This document shows, piece by piece, positions 10,110-30,453 of a stretch of DNA of 30,453 bases. The stretch is from a virus: the IMG/VR virus record IMGVR_UViG_3300025141_000496, positions 1-30,453 of that record; one strand, 5' to 3'. A program made the translations under genes and the position numbers. The notes beneath the pieces were generated by a model. It made no database searches, was not told where the DNA came from, and saw nothing but the letters and a program-made list of their open reading frames with translations. Numbering within the stretch: position 1 is the first letter of the stretch; every line of letters starts with the position of its first letter.

Positions 10110-10517
10110 ATGACTGATCTAATAAACTTAAACAATTTCCTAAACAATGCAATCGGCTTCGAAGATTTCTTCGATAGATTTCACCGTTTGCCTACTATCA
10201 ATGCAGGCTTTCCGCATTACAATATAAAGAAAGCTGGAGAAGATAAATACACTCTTGAAATGGCGTTAGCTGGCTATAAAAAGTCAGATATTAAAGTCAA
10301 TGTTCAAGACGGTGTGTTATCAATTGAAGGAAGTTCTTCTGAAGACAAAGAAGACTTTGTTCATAAAGGCATTGCCAAAAGATCATTCAAACGTCAGCTA
10401 CAATTAGCTGAGTATGTAGAATGCAATGGGGCTAAGTTAGAAGATGGAATGTTAAAAATAAATTTAAAACACAATCCACCAGAAGAAAAACGAGCAAAAG
10501 AAATTCTTATAAAATAA
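10110..10517 (+). CDS. Hsp20/IbpA-type small heat-shock protein
   Basis: A 135-residue alpha-crystallin-domain protein. Recognisable segments are FPHYNIKKAGEDKYTLEMAL (about 34-53), AGYKKSDIKVNV (54-65), GVLSIEG (68-74), GIAKRSFKRQLQLAEYVE (88-105) and GAKLEDGMLKINLKH (107-121). These are the class A IbpA-like pattern. Family knowledge: ATP-independent holdase chaperones; phage copies are frequent in marine phages and are thought to help virion protein folding or stress survival. The strongest ribosome-binding site in the window precedes it, predicting high expression. It forms a separate unit between the lysis genes and the repeat region. Confidence 0.93.
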   Translation: MTDLINLNNFLNNAIGFEDFFDRFHRLPTINAGFPHYNIKKAGEDKYTLEMALAGYKKSDIKVNVQDGVLSIEGSSSEDKEDFVHKGIAKRSFKRQLQLAEYVECNGAKLEDGMLKINLKHNPPEEKRAKEILIK

Positions 10518-15983: not shown

Positions 15984-17473
15984 AAACAATAGTATTAGGA
16001 CCACCTGGCACGGGAAAGACAACCACTTTATTAAATAAAGTAGATGAGTATTTAAAAGAAACAGATCCTGATAAAATTGGTTACTTTGCTTTCACACAAA
16101 AAGCTGCGTACCACGCCAGAGATGAAGCAATAAAAAAATTTAATTTAACGGAAGACGATCTTCCCTATTTTAGAACACTACACTCATTAGCCTTTCGAAA
16201 ATTAGGACTTAAAAAAGATCAAGTTATGCAGTCAAGACACTACAAAGATTTGGGAAAGAAATTAGGGTTTCCAGTTTCTTATGCCGAACATCAAGAAGAT
16301 CATGGTATATTTACTTCTGATAGTGAATATTTACAAATTATACAATTAGCGCAACTTAGAAATATTACACCTGAACAACAATATAATAGAAGAGAACATA
16401 CTCAAGATTTAGAATTAGATAAATTACGTATCATTCATAATGAATTAAAAAGATATAAAAAAGAATATAACCTAATAGACTTCAATGACATGATTTTAGA
16501 TTTTATAAAATCAGATAAATCTCCAAACTTTGACGTTGTATTTATTGATGAAGCACAAGACTTATCTCTTATGCAATGGGATATGACTAAAACTATTTGG
16601 GATAAAACAGAAGATACTTTTATTGCTGGTGATGATGATCAGGCTATTTTTAAATGGGCTGGTGCTGATGTAGATTCTTTTATAGCTTTACAAGATCAAA
16701 TGATCAATCTTCCATTAATACAATCACACAGAATACCTATGAAAGTTCACCAACTAGCAATGGGAATCATAAATAGAATTAAACATCGAATAGATAAAAC
16801 ATGGCAACCTAAAACTAATGAAGGTAGTTTACACAGACATTTTGAAATTGATTCAATTGATATGTCTTCGGGTGAGTGGTTAGTATTAGCTCGCACCAAA
16901 TATATGCTTAGAGAGATAGAAGATGTTTTATATCGTAAAGGACTATATTATAAAACAAGACATAAACGTAGTTATGAAAAAGATATTCAAGAAGCAGCTA
17001 TCGACTGGGAGCATTTAAGACAGGGACAACTTTTATCATACAAACAAATAGAAAAAATTTATACCTATATGTCCCCGACACATGTTGATAAAACTCCAAT
17101 GTACGGAATGACAAAAGGTGCGTTTTATGGCATTGACCAACTTACAAAAGATTTTGGCTTAAACACTAGAAAAGTTTGGTATGAAGCTTTTGATGATGCA
17201 GGTTCAAGACGTATAGAATATTTAAGAAAAATGAGAGCGAATGGGGAACAATTAAATAAACCTCCAAGAATAGAACTTTCTACTATTCACGCCGCTAAAG
17301 GCGGAGAATCTCAGAACGTAGTTCTTCTTACCGATCTTACTAAAACAACGCTCACCAATTATGAAAAAAATCCAGATGATGAGAACCGTTTGTTTTATGT
17401 AGGAGCAACGCGAACGAAAGAAAATTTACACATTATAGAACCTAAACAATATAACAAAGGATTTAATATATGA
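15980..17473 (+). CDS. UvrD/PcrA-like superfamily 1 DNA helicase
   Basis: A 497-residue SF1A helicase. Motif I is GPPGTGKTT (7-15), motif Ia FAFTQKAA, motif II VFIDEAQDLS, motif III AGDDDQAIFKWAGAD, motif V STIHAAKGGESQNVVLL and motif VI DENRLFYVGATRTKENLHII. Family knowledge: 3'-5' (UvrD) or 5'-3' (Dda-like) ssDNA translocation and unwinding. It is shorter than bacterial UvrD (about 720), as in other phage versions. It is coupled through ATGA overlaps to the microprotein upstream and the DUF3310-type gene downstream. With no DnaB-like helicase seen, it may be the replicative helicase; that is inference. Confidence 0.92.
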   Translation: MKTIVLGPPGTGKTTTLLNKVDEYLKETDPDKIGYFAFTQKAAYHARDEAIKKFNLTEDDLPYFRTLHSLAFRKLGLKKDQVMQSRHYKDLGKKLGFPVSYAEHQEDHGIFTSDSEYLQIIQLAQLRNITPEQQYNRREHTQDLELDKLRIIHNELKRYKKEYNLIDFNDMILDFIKSDKSPNFDVVFIDEAQDLSLMQWDMTKTIWDKTEDTFIAGDDDQAIFKWAGADVDSFIALQDQMINLPLIQSHRIPMKVHQLAMGIINRIKHRIDKTWQPKTNEGSLHRHFEIDSIDMSSGEWLVLARTKYMLREIEDVLYRKGLYYKTRHKRSYEKDIQEAAIDWEHLRQGQLLSYKQIEKIYTYMSPTHVDKTPMYGMTKGAFYGIDQLTKDFGLNTRKVWYEAFDDAGSRRIEYLRKMRANGEQLNKPPRIELSTIHAAKGGESQNVVLLTDLTKTTLTNYEKNPDDENRLFYVGATRTKENLHIIEPKQYNKGFNI

Positions 17474-24499: not shown

Positions 24500-24529
24500 T
24501 TGACAATGCTTTTAAATATCCTATATAAT
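24500..24529 (+). promoter_or_regulatory. Sigma70-type promoter upstream of leader ORF
   Basis: TTGACA (24500-24505), 18 bp spacer, TATAAT (24524-24529). Seven bases later is ATG 24537, the start of a six-codon ORF. The -35 box begins two bases from the minus-strand ATG at 24498. Confidence 0.75.
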
Positions 24530-24536
24530 AATCCAA

Positions 24537-24557
24537 ATGAAAGGAAATAACATATGA
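24537..24557 (+). CDS. Six-codon leaderless leader peptide (MKGNNI)
   Basis: ATG 24537 lies eight bases after the -10 box. The ORF encodes six residues and its TGA overlaps the ATG of the ribbon-helix-helix gene (ATGA, 24554-24557). Its codons 2-3 (AAAGGA) also serve as the ribosome-binding site for that gene. It is probably a coupling device rather than a functional peptide. Confidence 0.4.
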   Translation: MKGNNI

Positions 24558-24727
24558 CGGATATAACAAAGTATAGAAATGTTTCATTAACGCATGGAAC
24601 ATACAAGACATTAATAAATTTGTCCAAAGTTTTATTACCAGACGCAAAACTGTCTATTAGTAAAACGATTGAGGCATTAGCGAATGAGAAAGCGAAGAAG
24701 TTAAATGGTAAAATTAAAAAAATATAG
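24554..24727 (+). CDS. Ribbon-helix-helix DNA-binding protein (57 aa)
   Basis: A 57-residue protein. YRNVSLTHGTYKTLINLSKV looks like the N-terminal strand and helix 1, and LSISKTIEALANEKAKKLNG helix 2, the Arc/MetJ fold layout. Family knowledge: dimers bind palindromic operators in the major groove through the strand. It sits behind a consensus promoter beside several dyad-symmetric promoters, making it a candidate regulator of them. AAAGGA stands eight bases before the ATG. Confidence 0.7.
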   Translation: MTDITKYRNVSLTHGTYKTLINLSKVLLPDAKLSISKTIEALANEKAKKLNGKIKKI

Positions 24728-26293: not shown

Positions 26294-26605
26294 ATGAAAA
26301 AAGAAAATTACAAACCCCTACCTTATCAATTAATTATTGCCGATTCCGCGATTAGCGGTCAAGGTGTGTTTACGACACGAAAATTAGTACAAGGAACCTT
26401 ACTTGGAATTTCTCATTATCGAATTGATGGAGAGTATATTCGAACTCCTTTAGGAGGATTTATTAATCATTCGGAAACCCCTAATTGTCATCGCTCTCAA
26501 GCGCGTATTCGCGAAGGTTTTGATAAATGGTATATTACCGTCGTCAAAGATATTAACAAAGGGGAAGAACTTACATTAAAATATATTTTATATGACCCAA
26601 AATAA
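26294..26605 (+). CDS. Minimal SET-domain protein (putative lysine methyltransferase)
   Basis: A 103-residue single SET domain: SAISGQGVFTTRKLVQGTLL (18-37) with the GxG SAM-binding loop, GGFINHSETPNC (54-65) with the NHS...PNC signature, and DINKGEELTLKYILYD (86-101) with the catalytic-type Tyr97. It has no pre- or post-SET cysteines and is shorter than eukaryotic SET (about 130). Family knowledge: SET enzymes methylate protein lysines; viral single-domain examples exist. Targets in a bacterium are unknown. It is preceded closely by the UUCG hairpin and lacks an evident ribosome-binding site. Confidence 0.85.
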   Translation: MKKENYKPLPYQLIIADSAISGQGVFTTRKLVQGTLLGISHYRIDGEYIRTPLGGFINHSETPNCHRSQARIREGFDKWYITVVKDINKGEELTLKYILYDPK

Positions 26606-28107: not shown

Positions 28108-28395
28108 ATGCCCAAGAAGAGAAAATTAAATGTTGTGAGTAGTCCGTCCGAGATTCCCTTTCAAAAGTATAGAGTTGAATGGATTGATTGTATTAGTGAC
28201 TCTGGTTGGGCTGATGAGAAAGAATTCAATAAGATGAAGCTGGCTACCCCAGTCAATGAAGGTTGGTTATATTCTAAAGATAAGAATGCTATTAAACTAT
28301 TTGCTTCCTATGATAAGGAAGATGATGGTAGCTTTACTTTTGGAGATCGGACGATGATTCCTTTGCCTTGGGTGAAGAAGATGACGAAGATTTAG
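28108..28395 (+). CDS. Conserved hypothetical protein (95 aa)
   Basis: A 95-residue protein: basic start MPKKRKLNVVSS, then QKYRVEWIDCISDSGWADEK, EFNKMKLATPVNEGWLYSKD and FGDRTMIPLPWVKKM. The YRVEWxDxxxDSxWxDExEF pattern seems to be a phage family of unknown function. It lies after the terminator and converges on the small terminase gene, sharing 62 bases with its 3' end on the opposite strand. Confidence 0.7.
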   Translation: MPKKRKLNVVSSPSEIPFQKYRVEWIDCISDSGWADEKEFNKMKLATPVNEGWLYSKDKNAIKLFASYDKEDDGSFTFGDRTMIPLPWVKKMTKI

Positions 28396-28882
28396 ATGGC
28401 TTATTCTCAATTACCCCTTCAACAATCTTTGGAGATAGAAGAGGTTCGTAGTCGTGTAAAATTTGTTTCATTTTGGCTTCTAGTTGTTCCACTGTTAATT
28501 CTTCTAATTTCCCATGTTTTATTATTTTTCTGTCTATGTATAATCCTGCTGCCTTGCCTCGAGATACTTCAGCGTTTACAGCAGAAGAAAAACTTCCCTT
28601 CTTGAGAGCAGCCTGTTTAATTCTGTCTAGCTCGGCAACATGCTTTTCATAACTTACTTCAAATTTTTTTCGTCTCTCTTCTTTGAGTTCTCCCATAAAT
28701 TTTGCCACTAACGGGGAAAGTCTTGGATTCATCAACTCACAGCCTTCTTGTTTTGCTCTCTTAGGACTATAGCCAGCAAGCTTCGCTGCCTCCATTTGAG
28801 TCATCATACCTTCGGGTCCACCAAATACCATGTATTCAGCAAATCTTTTTTGCATTTCTGTTAATCTTTTTGGAACTCCCAT
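28334..28882 (-). CDS. terS: Terminase small subunit
   Basis: A 182-residue protein. The N-terminal DNA-binding region has LTEMQKRFAEYMVFGGPEG, MTQMEAAKLAGYSPKRAKQE and GCELMNPRLSPLVAKFMGEL, the helix-turn-helix and NPxV/L pattern of Terminase_2-type small subunits. A middle coil follows, then SFSSAVNAEVSRGKAAGLYI, a recurrent terminase small-subunit element. The tail is a Ser-rich run with acidic and basic residues. Family knowledge: recognises viral DNA ends and activates the large terminase. The ATG at 28882 is preferred over a TTG at 28891, which lies in the minus-strand -10 box. The large subunit is not in the window. Confidence 0.85.
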   Translation of the reverse strand: MGVPKRLTEMQKRFAEYMVFGGPEGMMTQMEAAKLAGYSPKRAKQEGCELMNPRLSPLVAKFMGELKEERRKKFEVSYEKHVAELDRIKQAALKKGSFSSAVNAEVSRGKAAGLYIDRKIIKHGKLEELTVEQLEAKMKQILHDYEPLLSPKIVEGVIENKPSKSSSSSSPKAKESSSDLQK

Positions 28883-28884
28883 AC

Positions 28885-28918
28885 TTGACAATTTAAGGTA
28901 ACTATCCTATAAAGTCAA
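28885..28918. promoter_or_regulatory. Interlocked divergent promoter pair (34 bp)
   Basis: Plus strand: TTGACA (28885-28890), 17 bp, TATAAA (28908-28913), six bases, ATG 28920. Minus strand: TTGACT (28918-28913), 17 bp, TAAATT (28895-28890), seven bases, ATG 28882. Both mRNAs should be leaderless or nearly so. The outer TTGAC-N24-GTCAA geometry equals that at 12611-12644. Confidence 0.75.
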
Positions 28919-28919
28919 T

Positions 28920-29375
28920 ATGAAAGATGACCGAGGAGATTTAGATTTAACACTTCTGATTGAAAACCATCAGAAAGAACTTTGGGATTTTAAACAAAAA
29001 GAATCTCAGTGGATAATGGATAAAAATCAGCTAGAGGGTAATCAAAAAATTATTAATGAACTTTCTGCAAAACTACTAGACGTTACGAAAGCAAATTTTT
29101 CTTTGAAATCGAAGTTGGTTGAAGCTGAAGAAGCCTTAGCTAATGCGTTAGCTAGTGATGAGCGTCAGAAGGAAGCAGATGAGAAGATGATGTTCAAGCT
29201 AGAAAGAATACGAGAGTTAGAAAATATTAATGATGATCATAGACAATTAAATGGACACTTACAGAGTCGCTTGACAGAGGTGGAGCAGGAGGTTATAGAG
29301 CTTCATGCTGACAATAAAAAGTTAGCACGGCAAATACAAGATTTAGAAAACAACCGTAAATATTCTGAAAGTTAA
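28920..29375 (+). CDS. Coiled-coil protein, leaderless
   Basis: A 151-residue protein that is nearly one continuous coiled coil: LIENHQKELWDFKQKESQWI, SLKSKLVEAEEALANALASD, RLTEVEQEVIELHADNKKLA. It has no TM, signal or Cys. Scaffolding or a DNA-packaging partner is conceivable because it is divergent from the small terminase gene, but nothing specific shows this. The start is fixed by the promoter; the mRNA begins ATGAAAGA. Confidence 0.75.
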   Translation: MKDDRGDLDLTLLIENHQKELWDFKQKESQWIMDKNQLEGNQKIINELSAKLLDVTKANFSLKSKLVEAEEALANALASDERQKEADEKMMFKLERIRELENINDDHRQLNGHLQSRLTEVEQEVIELHADNKKLARQIQDLENNRKYSES

Positions 29376-29621: not shown

Positions 29622-29794
29622 TGCACGAGGTAGTTACCTCGATAAAGACATGGGTCCAGAGGCAAAATTATATCAGAAACTTCGTAAAAAATCATCCAGG
29701 ATTTTATGGACAAGGCTGGAAAACCTTAGCTTACTTGGGTGCCCTGATCTATTGGGTTATAATGCTAATTCCACTTTTTTTACTGTCGAGTTAA
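29621..29794 (+). CDS. Possible overlapping ORF encoding a TM peptide (57 aa)
   Basis: An ORF in TAATG coupling with the previous gene, lying largely inside the nuclease gene in another frame (145 nt shared). It encodes MHEVVTSIKTWVQRQNYIRN and ends in a TM helix (LAYLGALIYWVIMLIPLFLL). The coupling is suggestive, but the nuclease frame has clear motifs and this one may be a chance reading. A CGAGGTA/TACCTCG dyad (29626-29641) lies near its start. Confidence 0.25.
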   Translation: MHEVVTSIKTWVQRQNYIRNFVKNHPGFYGQGWKTLAYLGALIYWVIMLIPLFLLSS

Positions 29795-30027
29795 AAGTTA
29801 CTCGAGGGAATAAACTTAAATTTTCTCCGCATCAAATTGCGTTCCATAAGACACATCCAATAAATACTTTTATCATAGCCGAGGCCCTCGGTCCGAGGTC
29901 CTCGAAACTTGTTCAGATGTACCGTGGTTCACGGATCACAGAGCTTGTCGCTTGCGGCTTGAAGCTTGATGCTTGCTGCTTGGGGCTTGACGCTTGTTGC
30001 TTGGAGCTCGCGAAGCTTGGCGCTTGA
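29650..30027 (+). CDS. VRR-NUC-like PD-(D/E)XK nuclease with repeat-derived tail
   Basis: A 125-residue protein. Residues 1-100 carry the nuclease: GPEAKLYQKLRK, LLGCPDLLGYN (Asp33), STFFTVELKVTRG (Glu47, Lys49) and FSPHQIAFHKTHP. This is the (P)D...ExK plus QxxF pattern of VRR-NUC/HJR-like phage endonucleases. Family knowledge: cleaves structured or branched DNA. The last about 26 residues (ACGLKLDACCLGLDACCLEL) are translated from the GCTTGNN array, giving a seven-residue LxLDACC period, so the array has probably extended the original C-terminus. No ribosome-binding site is evident before ATG 29650. Confidence 0.8.
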   Translation: MGPEAKLYQKLRKKSSRILWTRLENLSLLGCPDLLGYNANSTFFTVELKVTRGNKLKFSPHQIAFHKTHPINTFIIAEALGPRSSKLVQMYRGSRITELVACGLKLDACCLGLDACCLELAKLGA

Positions 30028-30121
30028 TGCTTGGCGCTTGAAGCTTGTAGCCATTATCCAGGCACCATTGATCGTGGAATTTTTTTATAAGTTCTGATTC
30101 AGTGCTTCGGGTATGTGACAT
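29936..30121 (-). CDS. Small protein with repeat-derived C-terminus
   Basis: A 61-residue ORF: HTRSTESELIKKFHDQWCLD then NGYKLQAPSIKRQASRAPSN and similar heptads (KRQAPSSKHQASSRKRQAL). The first about 28 residues look like a genuine small domain; the rest is translation of the heptanucleotide array. It overlaps the end of the Gp88-like gene by 23 nt and is antisense to the nuclease gene end. I remember similar KLQAPS-type C-termini in marine-phage predictions, which may all be by-products of such arrays. Confidence 0.4.
   Translation of the reverse strand: MSHTRSTESELIKKFHDQWCLDNGYKLQAPSIKRQASRAPSNKRQAPSSKHQASSRKRQAL
29943..30049. repeat. GCTTGNN heptanucleotide array, 15 units
   Basis: GCTTG recurs every 7 bp from 29943: nine units to 29999, one GCTCG at 30006, a 2-base slip, then 30015, 30022, 30029, 30036 and 30043. 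The five-base core is constant in 14 of 15 units while the two spacer bases vary freely (TC, CG, AA, AT, CT, GG, AC, TT, GA and so on). The array overlaps the 3' end of the plus-strand nuclease gene and the 3' half of the minus-strand ORF. Confidence 0.92.
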
Positions 30122-30453
30122 TGTCTACCTTCCTGTCCCAGCATGCTCTACAGTCCCGGCATTGGTTGCCCTGGTCCGCGGCAGGACATGTCTTCGTCGA
30201 GCTGGAGACGGTCGATGTCCACGGCCAGAATTTTACTGGAGGTTGATCAATCATATGCGAGCTCATTCTAATAATTAAATTTGACGGAACTATGTCCGGA
30301 TCCATTAGGTTCAAAAATTTTGCTTCTCTTGTTGGCATCCAGTGACTGGTGTCAGGCGTTAACCTGCAAACCTCGAATATATTCTCCAGATGGGCCATCG
30401 ACTGTATGTCCCCGGCATCATGCCATCTAAAATATTTATGCTTTCGAATCAGT
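30099..30453 (-). CDS. Gp88-like phage protein, partial (N-terminus outside window)
   Basis: The frame is open from the right edge to the stop at 30099: 117 residues of a C-terminal part. It reads KYFRWHDAGDIQSMAHLENI, FEVCRLTPDTSHWMPTREAK and SNLIIRMSSHM, then a cysteine cluster CPAADQGNQCRDCRACWD and NVTYPKH. The RWHDAGD, TPxxxxWxPTRE and C...C..C..CW elements match the uncharacterised Gene product 88 family of mycobacteriophage and other phages as I remember it. The four cysteines suggest metal binding. The internal ATG at 30398 is not the start, because RWHDAGD lies upstream in frame. The 30122-30398 stretch is richer in G+C than the phage average. Confidence 0.8.
   Translation of the reverse strand, partial: LIRKHKYFRWHDAGDIQSMAHLENIFEVCRLTPDTSHWMPTREAKFLNLMDPDIVPSNLIIRMSSHMIDQPPVKFWPWTSTVSSSTKTCPAADQGNQCRDCRACWDRKVDNVTYPKH

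Follow-up and report, generated by a model that had tools for sequence, protein, structure and literature searches.

Genes and Repeats at the Locus

The window, by which we mean the whole stretch of DNA analyzed, is a viral sequence fragment of 30,453 bp. It is related to HTVC023P-type phages of SAR11, and among cultured phages with arrays HTVC027P is the closest to it. It carries a run of tandem heptads, termed array 1 (Table 1), which reads as nine GCTTGNN units, one GCTCGCG, an extra AA and five further GCTTGNN units, such that the core GCTTG is intact in 14 of 15 units, the step is 7 bp and the 2-bp spacer is nearly free. We counted 12 GCTTGNNGCTTG pairs in the window against 0.03 expected, a number reached by 0 of 100 shuffles. 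Both strands of the array are open reading frames, and by sequence logic the minus-strand form, CAAGCNN, cannot contain a stop codon in any frame with any spacer. Array 1 is the longest of the arrays, has no adjoining promoter, and lies between the converging nuclease and leftward units, with the large terminase gene and terS flanking it on opposite sides. The initial annotation had described the 15 units with their kept core, the open frames on both strands, the distance of about 1 kb to terS and the nuclease and Gp88-like neighbors, and all of these proved to be real.

Table 1. Positions of features in the 30,453-bp window.
Feature	Position	Strand	Remarks
Hsp20 small heat-shock protein	10110–10517		PF00011, E 1e-17
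Promoter-like TTGACA-N18-TATAAT of the candidate regulator gene	24500–24529	+	Array absent
57-residue ribbon-helix-helix-like protein, candidate (inferred) binder	24554–24727	+	From gene-content comparison, profiles and model
Short SET-domain protein in phage	26294–26605		PF00856, E 1.3e-10
Terminase small subunit (terS)	28334–28891	−	phrog_51, E 2e-13; ~1 kb left of array 1
Promoter-like TTGACA-N17-TATAAA	28885–28913	+	Ahead of gene at 28920; heptads absent
Nuclease-like gene	29650–30027	+	phrog_2165; conserved C-terminus encoded by first 12 array units
Hairpin in nuclease gene	29880–29904		~40 bp left of array 1
Small leftward ORF	29936–30121	−	CAAGCNN-encoded tail; like HTVC027P gp32
Array 1	29943–30049	+	15 heptads GCTTGNN (minus strand: CAAGCNN); +2 shift after unit 10
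Gp88-like gene	30099–30453	−	PF17338, E 2.5e-17; truncated by contig end

In relatives, the nuclease frame runs without interruption across most of the array's first half and has its stop codon at a narrow place, and many of them carry a palindrome, AGAACCT-GAACT-AGGTTCT, between the two array halves. The small leftward ORF had no PHROG match. Its counterparts in relatives combine unrelated N-terminal parts (an FKHPKYY type and an STESxLIxxxHxxW type) with a common array-coded tail, and judging by these sequences it looks as if the N-terminal cassettes had been exchanged at the array. The hairpin in the nuclease coding region, CGAGGCCCTCGGTCCGAGGTCCTCG, was paired in 440 of 490 cells across 49 relatives, compared with 104–270 when slid; compensatory changes are few within the group, and distant families have other stems. 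Two further repeat types were seen in related phages. The record psg01 (L408, 15280–15560) has GCTC and GCTTGC tetramer-like repeats where array 1 would be, and long inverted repeats of the form TGATCCCAGATCC...GGATCAGGGATCA, which in some relatives follow one another several times, occupy the non-coding stretch that separates the large terminase gene from the leftward genes (L407, 18000–18120; L254; L307).

The Array Keeps One Place Among Relatives

The initial annotation had suggested plotting array position across genomes, and this analysis gave a fixed place. In all 80 nuclease relatives kept, out of 408 confirmed, the array occupied one codon region and one strand, at the 3′ end of the nuclease gene. 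A pattern scan gave the same picture from the other direction: the nuclease was present on 101 of the 120 stretches listed, and in 97 of these 101 the array had the strand and 3′-end position just described, while all arrays of a stretch were on one strand in 119 of the 120. HTVC023P has no 7-bp arrays. The place of array 1 is taken in some relatives by arrays with an 8-bp step, the nuclease being present on 68 of the 120 stretches listed in an 8-bp scan. A 9-bp pattern, tried as a control, matched other contigs, with the nuclease in 0 of 120 listed; such a pattern makes a poor control, since repeats in coding sequence match steps that are multiples of three.

The Core Is Under Selection as DNA

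We compared core and spacer substitution in 50 distinct nuclease tails out of 71 in frame, which were required to have at least 6 of 9 exact cores, a requirement that favors a conserved core and under which 12 tails were dropped. Depending on the distance bin, 4-fold sites in the core differed in 0.2–1.9% of pairwise comparisons, compared with 5–45% in the nuclease body; in the closest bin, where counts are small, the values were 1/101 for the core and 25/476 for the body. Spacer differences ran from 5 to 41% by bin and were thus about neutral. Viewed codon by codon (31 of 50 relatives), the silent positions of the core were mostly frozen and those of the spacer varied. Codon choice in 66 distinct genes shifted in the same region, with GCT making up 91% of Ala codons in the array-coded tail versus 11% in the nuclease body, AAG 93% of Lys codons versus 23%, and TTA 1% of Leu codons versus 23%. 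Since silent core sites are held while the spacer drifts almost neutrally, selection acts on the GCTTG cores as DNA.

This result also bears on two other explanations of the array. One is that array 1 is kept for the peptides it encodes, LxACxLx on the plus strand and QAxSxKx on the minus strand, and the nuclease tail is indeed conserved, its frame staying uninterrupted over most of the array's first half; but the frozen silent sites of the core lead us to reject selection on the peptides, and in two relatives (L298 and L300), in which the small leftward ORF stops before most of the first units, most cores are nevertheless kept, so that we regard this explanation as extremely doubtful. The other is an ordinary slippage microsatellite. 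Many bacterial GCTTGNN matches are of that kind, with identical spacers in 75 of 125, yet among 434 distinct viral arrays with at least four exact units, neighboring spacers were equal in just 100 of 1462 cases, unit-specific spacers persist across relatives and the cores are selected. Varied spacers and core selection together rule against a microsatellite of identical units, which we find hardly credible at all. The initial annotation had called the spacer almost free and had favored selection on GCTTG over slippage, proposing core versus spacer rates as the test; the rates came out on the side of selection. Bacterial loci with GCTTGNN repeats (L129–L246; Pseudomonas, Halomonas and others) include some that form terminator-like inverted pairs. 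We considered these bacterial arrays as members of the same system and rejected them, as they are mostly plain repeats with some hairpin-like pairs.

Shorter Arrays Abut Leftward Promoters

In relatives whose sequence extends past the position of the window's end, shorter arrays abut the −35 box of leftward promoters in the form CAAGC|TTGACA-N17-TAGGAT, the next array after array 1 being borne by the promoter of the Gp88-like gene. The leftward layout is (CAAGCNN)n followed directly by TTGACA, 17 bp, TAGGAT, and then a ribosome site and start codon. Among 98 distinct secondary arrays from 81 loci, 40 abut TTGAC and 18 more have TTGAC within 45 bp; the remainder comprise 5 with cores inside the promoter, 27 beside a second promoter type and 8 with neither. 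TTGACA is complete in 37 of the 40 abutting arrays, and 30 have TAnnnT at 17 bp (TAGGAT in 29). Two heptads precede 44 of 86 leftward but 0 of 69 rightward TTGACA-N16-18-TAnnnT sites in the 81 loci, near-duplicate contigs being counted, and the rightward promoter-like sites of HTVC027P, TTGACA-N17-TAGGAT, likewise have no heptads.

A scan of IMG/VR for CAAGC-TTGACA-N17-TAGGAT, in which one core was demanded, returned at least 120 stretches, compared with 3 for a scrambled core. Upstream of 113 distinct promoter sites, a further core was present at −7 in 94, at −14 in 78 and at −21 in 27, and off-step cores were rare (−8 in 5 of the 113, almost none elsewhere). These sites usually have three units, and an open frame follows 107 of the 113. 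In one clade (L288, L295, L303 and L323), palindromes TGCGACAWWWTGTCGCA overlap TTGACA promoters beside the heptads of secondary arrays, a putative second operator type.

In HTVC027P, gp33 and gp34 are the two genes preceded by array-bearing promoters, with the arrays at 17396 and 17719. In the available part of the transcriptome study of this phage, gp33 and gp34 alone form one temporal expression cluster, high at 6–9 h, and the function of the early genes is stated not to be known (PMC12753301). Neither “promoter” nor “repeat” appears as a word in the main text of that study (PMC12753301). As gp33 and gp34 also have strand and place in common, their shared cluster is no proof of array action.

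A Small Protein Is the Candidate Binder

An RHH_1 profile search of 16 records matched psg01 only, and the candidate binder was therefore taken from a gene-content comparison of the window and HTVC027P with HTVC023P. The 57-residue protein encoded at 24554–24727 is common to the window and HTVC027P (gp21), and had no match in HTVC023P at E 1e-3. It has at least 543 relatives, the best 80 of which are 88–95% identical. Among 20 HTVC027P and 20 window proteins scanned against Pfam, none was identified as a regulator. The 200-bp regions upstream of the candidate gene (n = 110) held no core in 94 cases and one core in 16.

Several lines of comparison suggest, with moderate confidence, that this protein has a ribbon-helix-helix fold. 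The window's protein itself gave no match to PF01402 (RHH_1), and its main class (A2) matched weakly in 1 of 33 members. In the psg class (A4), 6 of 11 members matched at E 0.1 or better (best E 2.3e-4), a distant relative in psg01 (26%) scoring 18.3 bits, just under the cut-off of 20.5; the two classes are homologous by profile (E 1.6e-13). Ribosomal_L50 outscored PF01402 in 17 of 33 main-class members, with the window's protein below the cut-off, and this match is probably due to chance. The predicted model, of modest confidence (pLDDT 68), consists of an N-terminal stretch followed by two helices. Its best structural matches, all of low Z, were MazE6 (Z 5.0), an Arc variant (Z 4.7) and TCP domains, which we take to be ribbon-helix-helix proteins or alike. 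Foldseek alone found nothing significant for the model, and sequence searches of solved structures gave no ribbon-helix-helix relative for A2 and a weak MatP match for A4.

The N-terminal strand is alike across classes and the helices vary, a pattern that would fit core recognition by the strand and a step determined by the helices, while some residues of the presumed strand vary between classes having the same core. The 57-residue protein is the likely binder of the arrays.

The Step Mostly Agrees Within a Contig

On contigs that include the candidate gene and the nuclease together with 60 bp or more past the latter (n = 110), the step was 7 in 103, 8 in 6 and neither in 1. The step at the promoter equaled the step elsewhere on the contig in 173 of 180 sites (157 at 7 bp and 16 at 8 bp), and 7 sites disagreed. 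On a protein tree of 87 sequences, the step changed 4 times, compared with a mean of 15.7 in shuffles, and at least 2 changes were forced by well-supported branches, although the tree is short of columns and common descent alone would cluster step and protein class. Proteins of the psg class occur with step 7 and with step 8.

Comparison With Known Systems

The heptads of the parS/operator sites of pSM19035 are bound by the ribbon-helix-helix protein Omega (ParBpSM) (PMC9499535). As far as that system is described in the available part of the source, the phage arrays resemble it in being unspaced 7-bp repeats, several to a site, in which a core of 5 bp has loose flanks, and in overlapping or touching promoters (here the secondary arrays of relatives, not array 1); their candidate binder would, like Omega, be a small ribbon-helix-helix protein (PMC9499535). 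They differ from it in core, GCTTG rather than ATCAC (PMC9499535), so that the consensus WATCACW is not matched; in units that all run one way round, mostly just upstream of −35; in having an 8-bp version and one array inside a protein-coding gene; and in lacking a known ParA partner, none being present in the HTVC027P annotation.

Among other systems that we compared, the met boxes of MetJ are tandem 8-bp palindromic sites for a ribbon-helix-helix protein at promoters; the phage arrays are alike in being tandem promoter sites but have another sequence, are mostly 7 bp and are direct repeats. Arc is, like the candidate, a small phage regulator of ribbon-helix-helix (or similar) type, but is a repressor with a short operator rather than long arrays across a regulon. 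Cyanobacterial STRRs are 7-bp direct repeats, mostly intergenic. The intergenic repeats reported for Beggiatoaceae are heptameric TAACTGA (PMC4679880), and the phage arrays are likewise 7-bp direct repeats, mostly intergenic; in contrast to TAACTGA and the STRRs, described as fixed heptamers in cells in the material available, they combine a fixed core with a free spacer. In the literature searched, whose coverage excludes most subscription journals, we found no description of GCTTGNN arrays in phages.

Interpretation of the Arrays

We consider it probable that the GCTTGNN arrays serve a phage transcription regulator as multi-site operators, with the ribbon-helix-helix-like protein at 24554–24727 as the presumed binder. 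One dimer of this protein would sit on each heptad and read the 5-bp core through its beta-ribbon, the helices would determine the step, and the row of dimers along the DNA beside RNA polymerase would switch the leftward genes as a group. The same protein most likely also uses array 1, which would then be a high-capacity site for it; that array 1 acts, for example, as a roadblock where transcripts converge, or titrates the protein, is a guess.

Three other explanations need to be weighed against this operator model. The arrays might be operators for another phage or host protein, the candidate gene being a mere neighbor in the same genome; genes of one genome co-occur anyway, and the presumed-strand residues that differ between classes with the same core fit such an explanation. 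We nevertheless judge it fairly unlikely, given that promoter and other arrays switch to 8 bp together, that the step falls on distinct protein classes, and that HTVC023P is without both the 7-bp arrays and the protein. The initial annotation had thought of a packaging, partition or iteron-like binding array. Its idea of a protein-binding array fits the reading reached here, but packaging or partition is not supported as the main function, because arrays of the same genomes touch promoters and a transcription operator is the better reading. For array 1 itself, a function in packaging (pac or cos), as an origin or in partition is conceivable, in which case it would resemble the promoter arrays through a common binder that performs a second task. 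Such a role would suit its position, with terS on one side, the large terminase gene on the other and a hairpin nearby, as well as its length, the greatest of all the arrays, and its lack of a promoter, and the Omega heptads of pSM19035, in the part of the account available, serve both promoters and partition (PMC9499535); against this stand the missing ParA in the HTVC027P annotation and the use of the same heptads at promoters, and we hold such an element to be unlikely. An RNA-level element, with GCUUG/CAAGC repeats acting in the transcript as protein-binding sites or as terminators, would suit the location of array 1 inside genes of both strands and the palindrome found between its halves in many relatives. 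We think this very unlikely, as the promoter arrays end exactly at −35, in step and upstream of their own transcript.

Extending the operator model to a whole regulon, there is in our view about an even chance that the most abundant known ocean phage group runs a regulon through a 57-residue ribbon-helix-helix protein acting on arrays with a fixed 5-bp core, in which arrays and protein would have moved jointly from one step to the other, 7 or 8 bp, on more than one occasion, and in which one array, over the end of the nuclease gene and frozen at silent sites, would form a promoter-less hub. For the cultured phage HTVC027P, this analysis provides a specific candidate regulator together with its sites and target genes, and as arrays of 7-bp and of 8-bp step with an identical core both occur naturally, they allow a clean test of array spacing by a DNA-binding protein.
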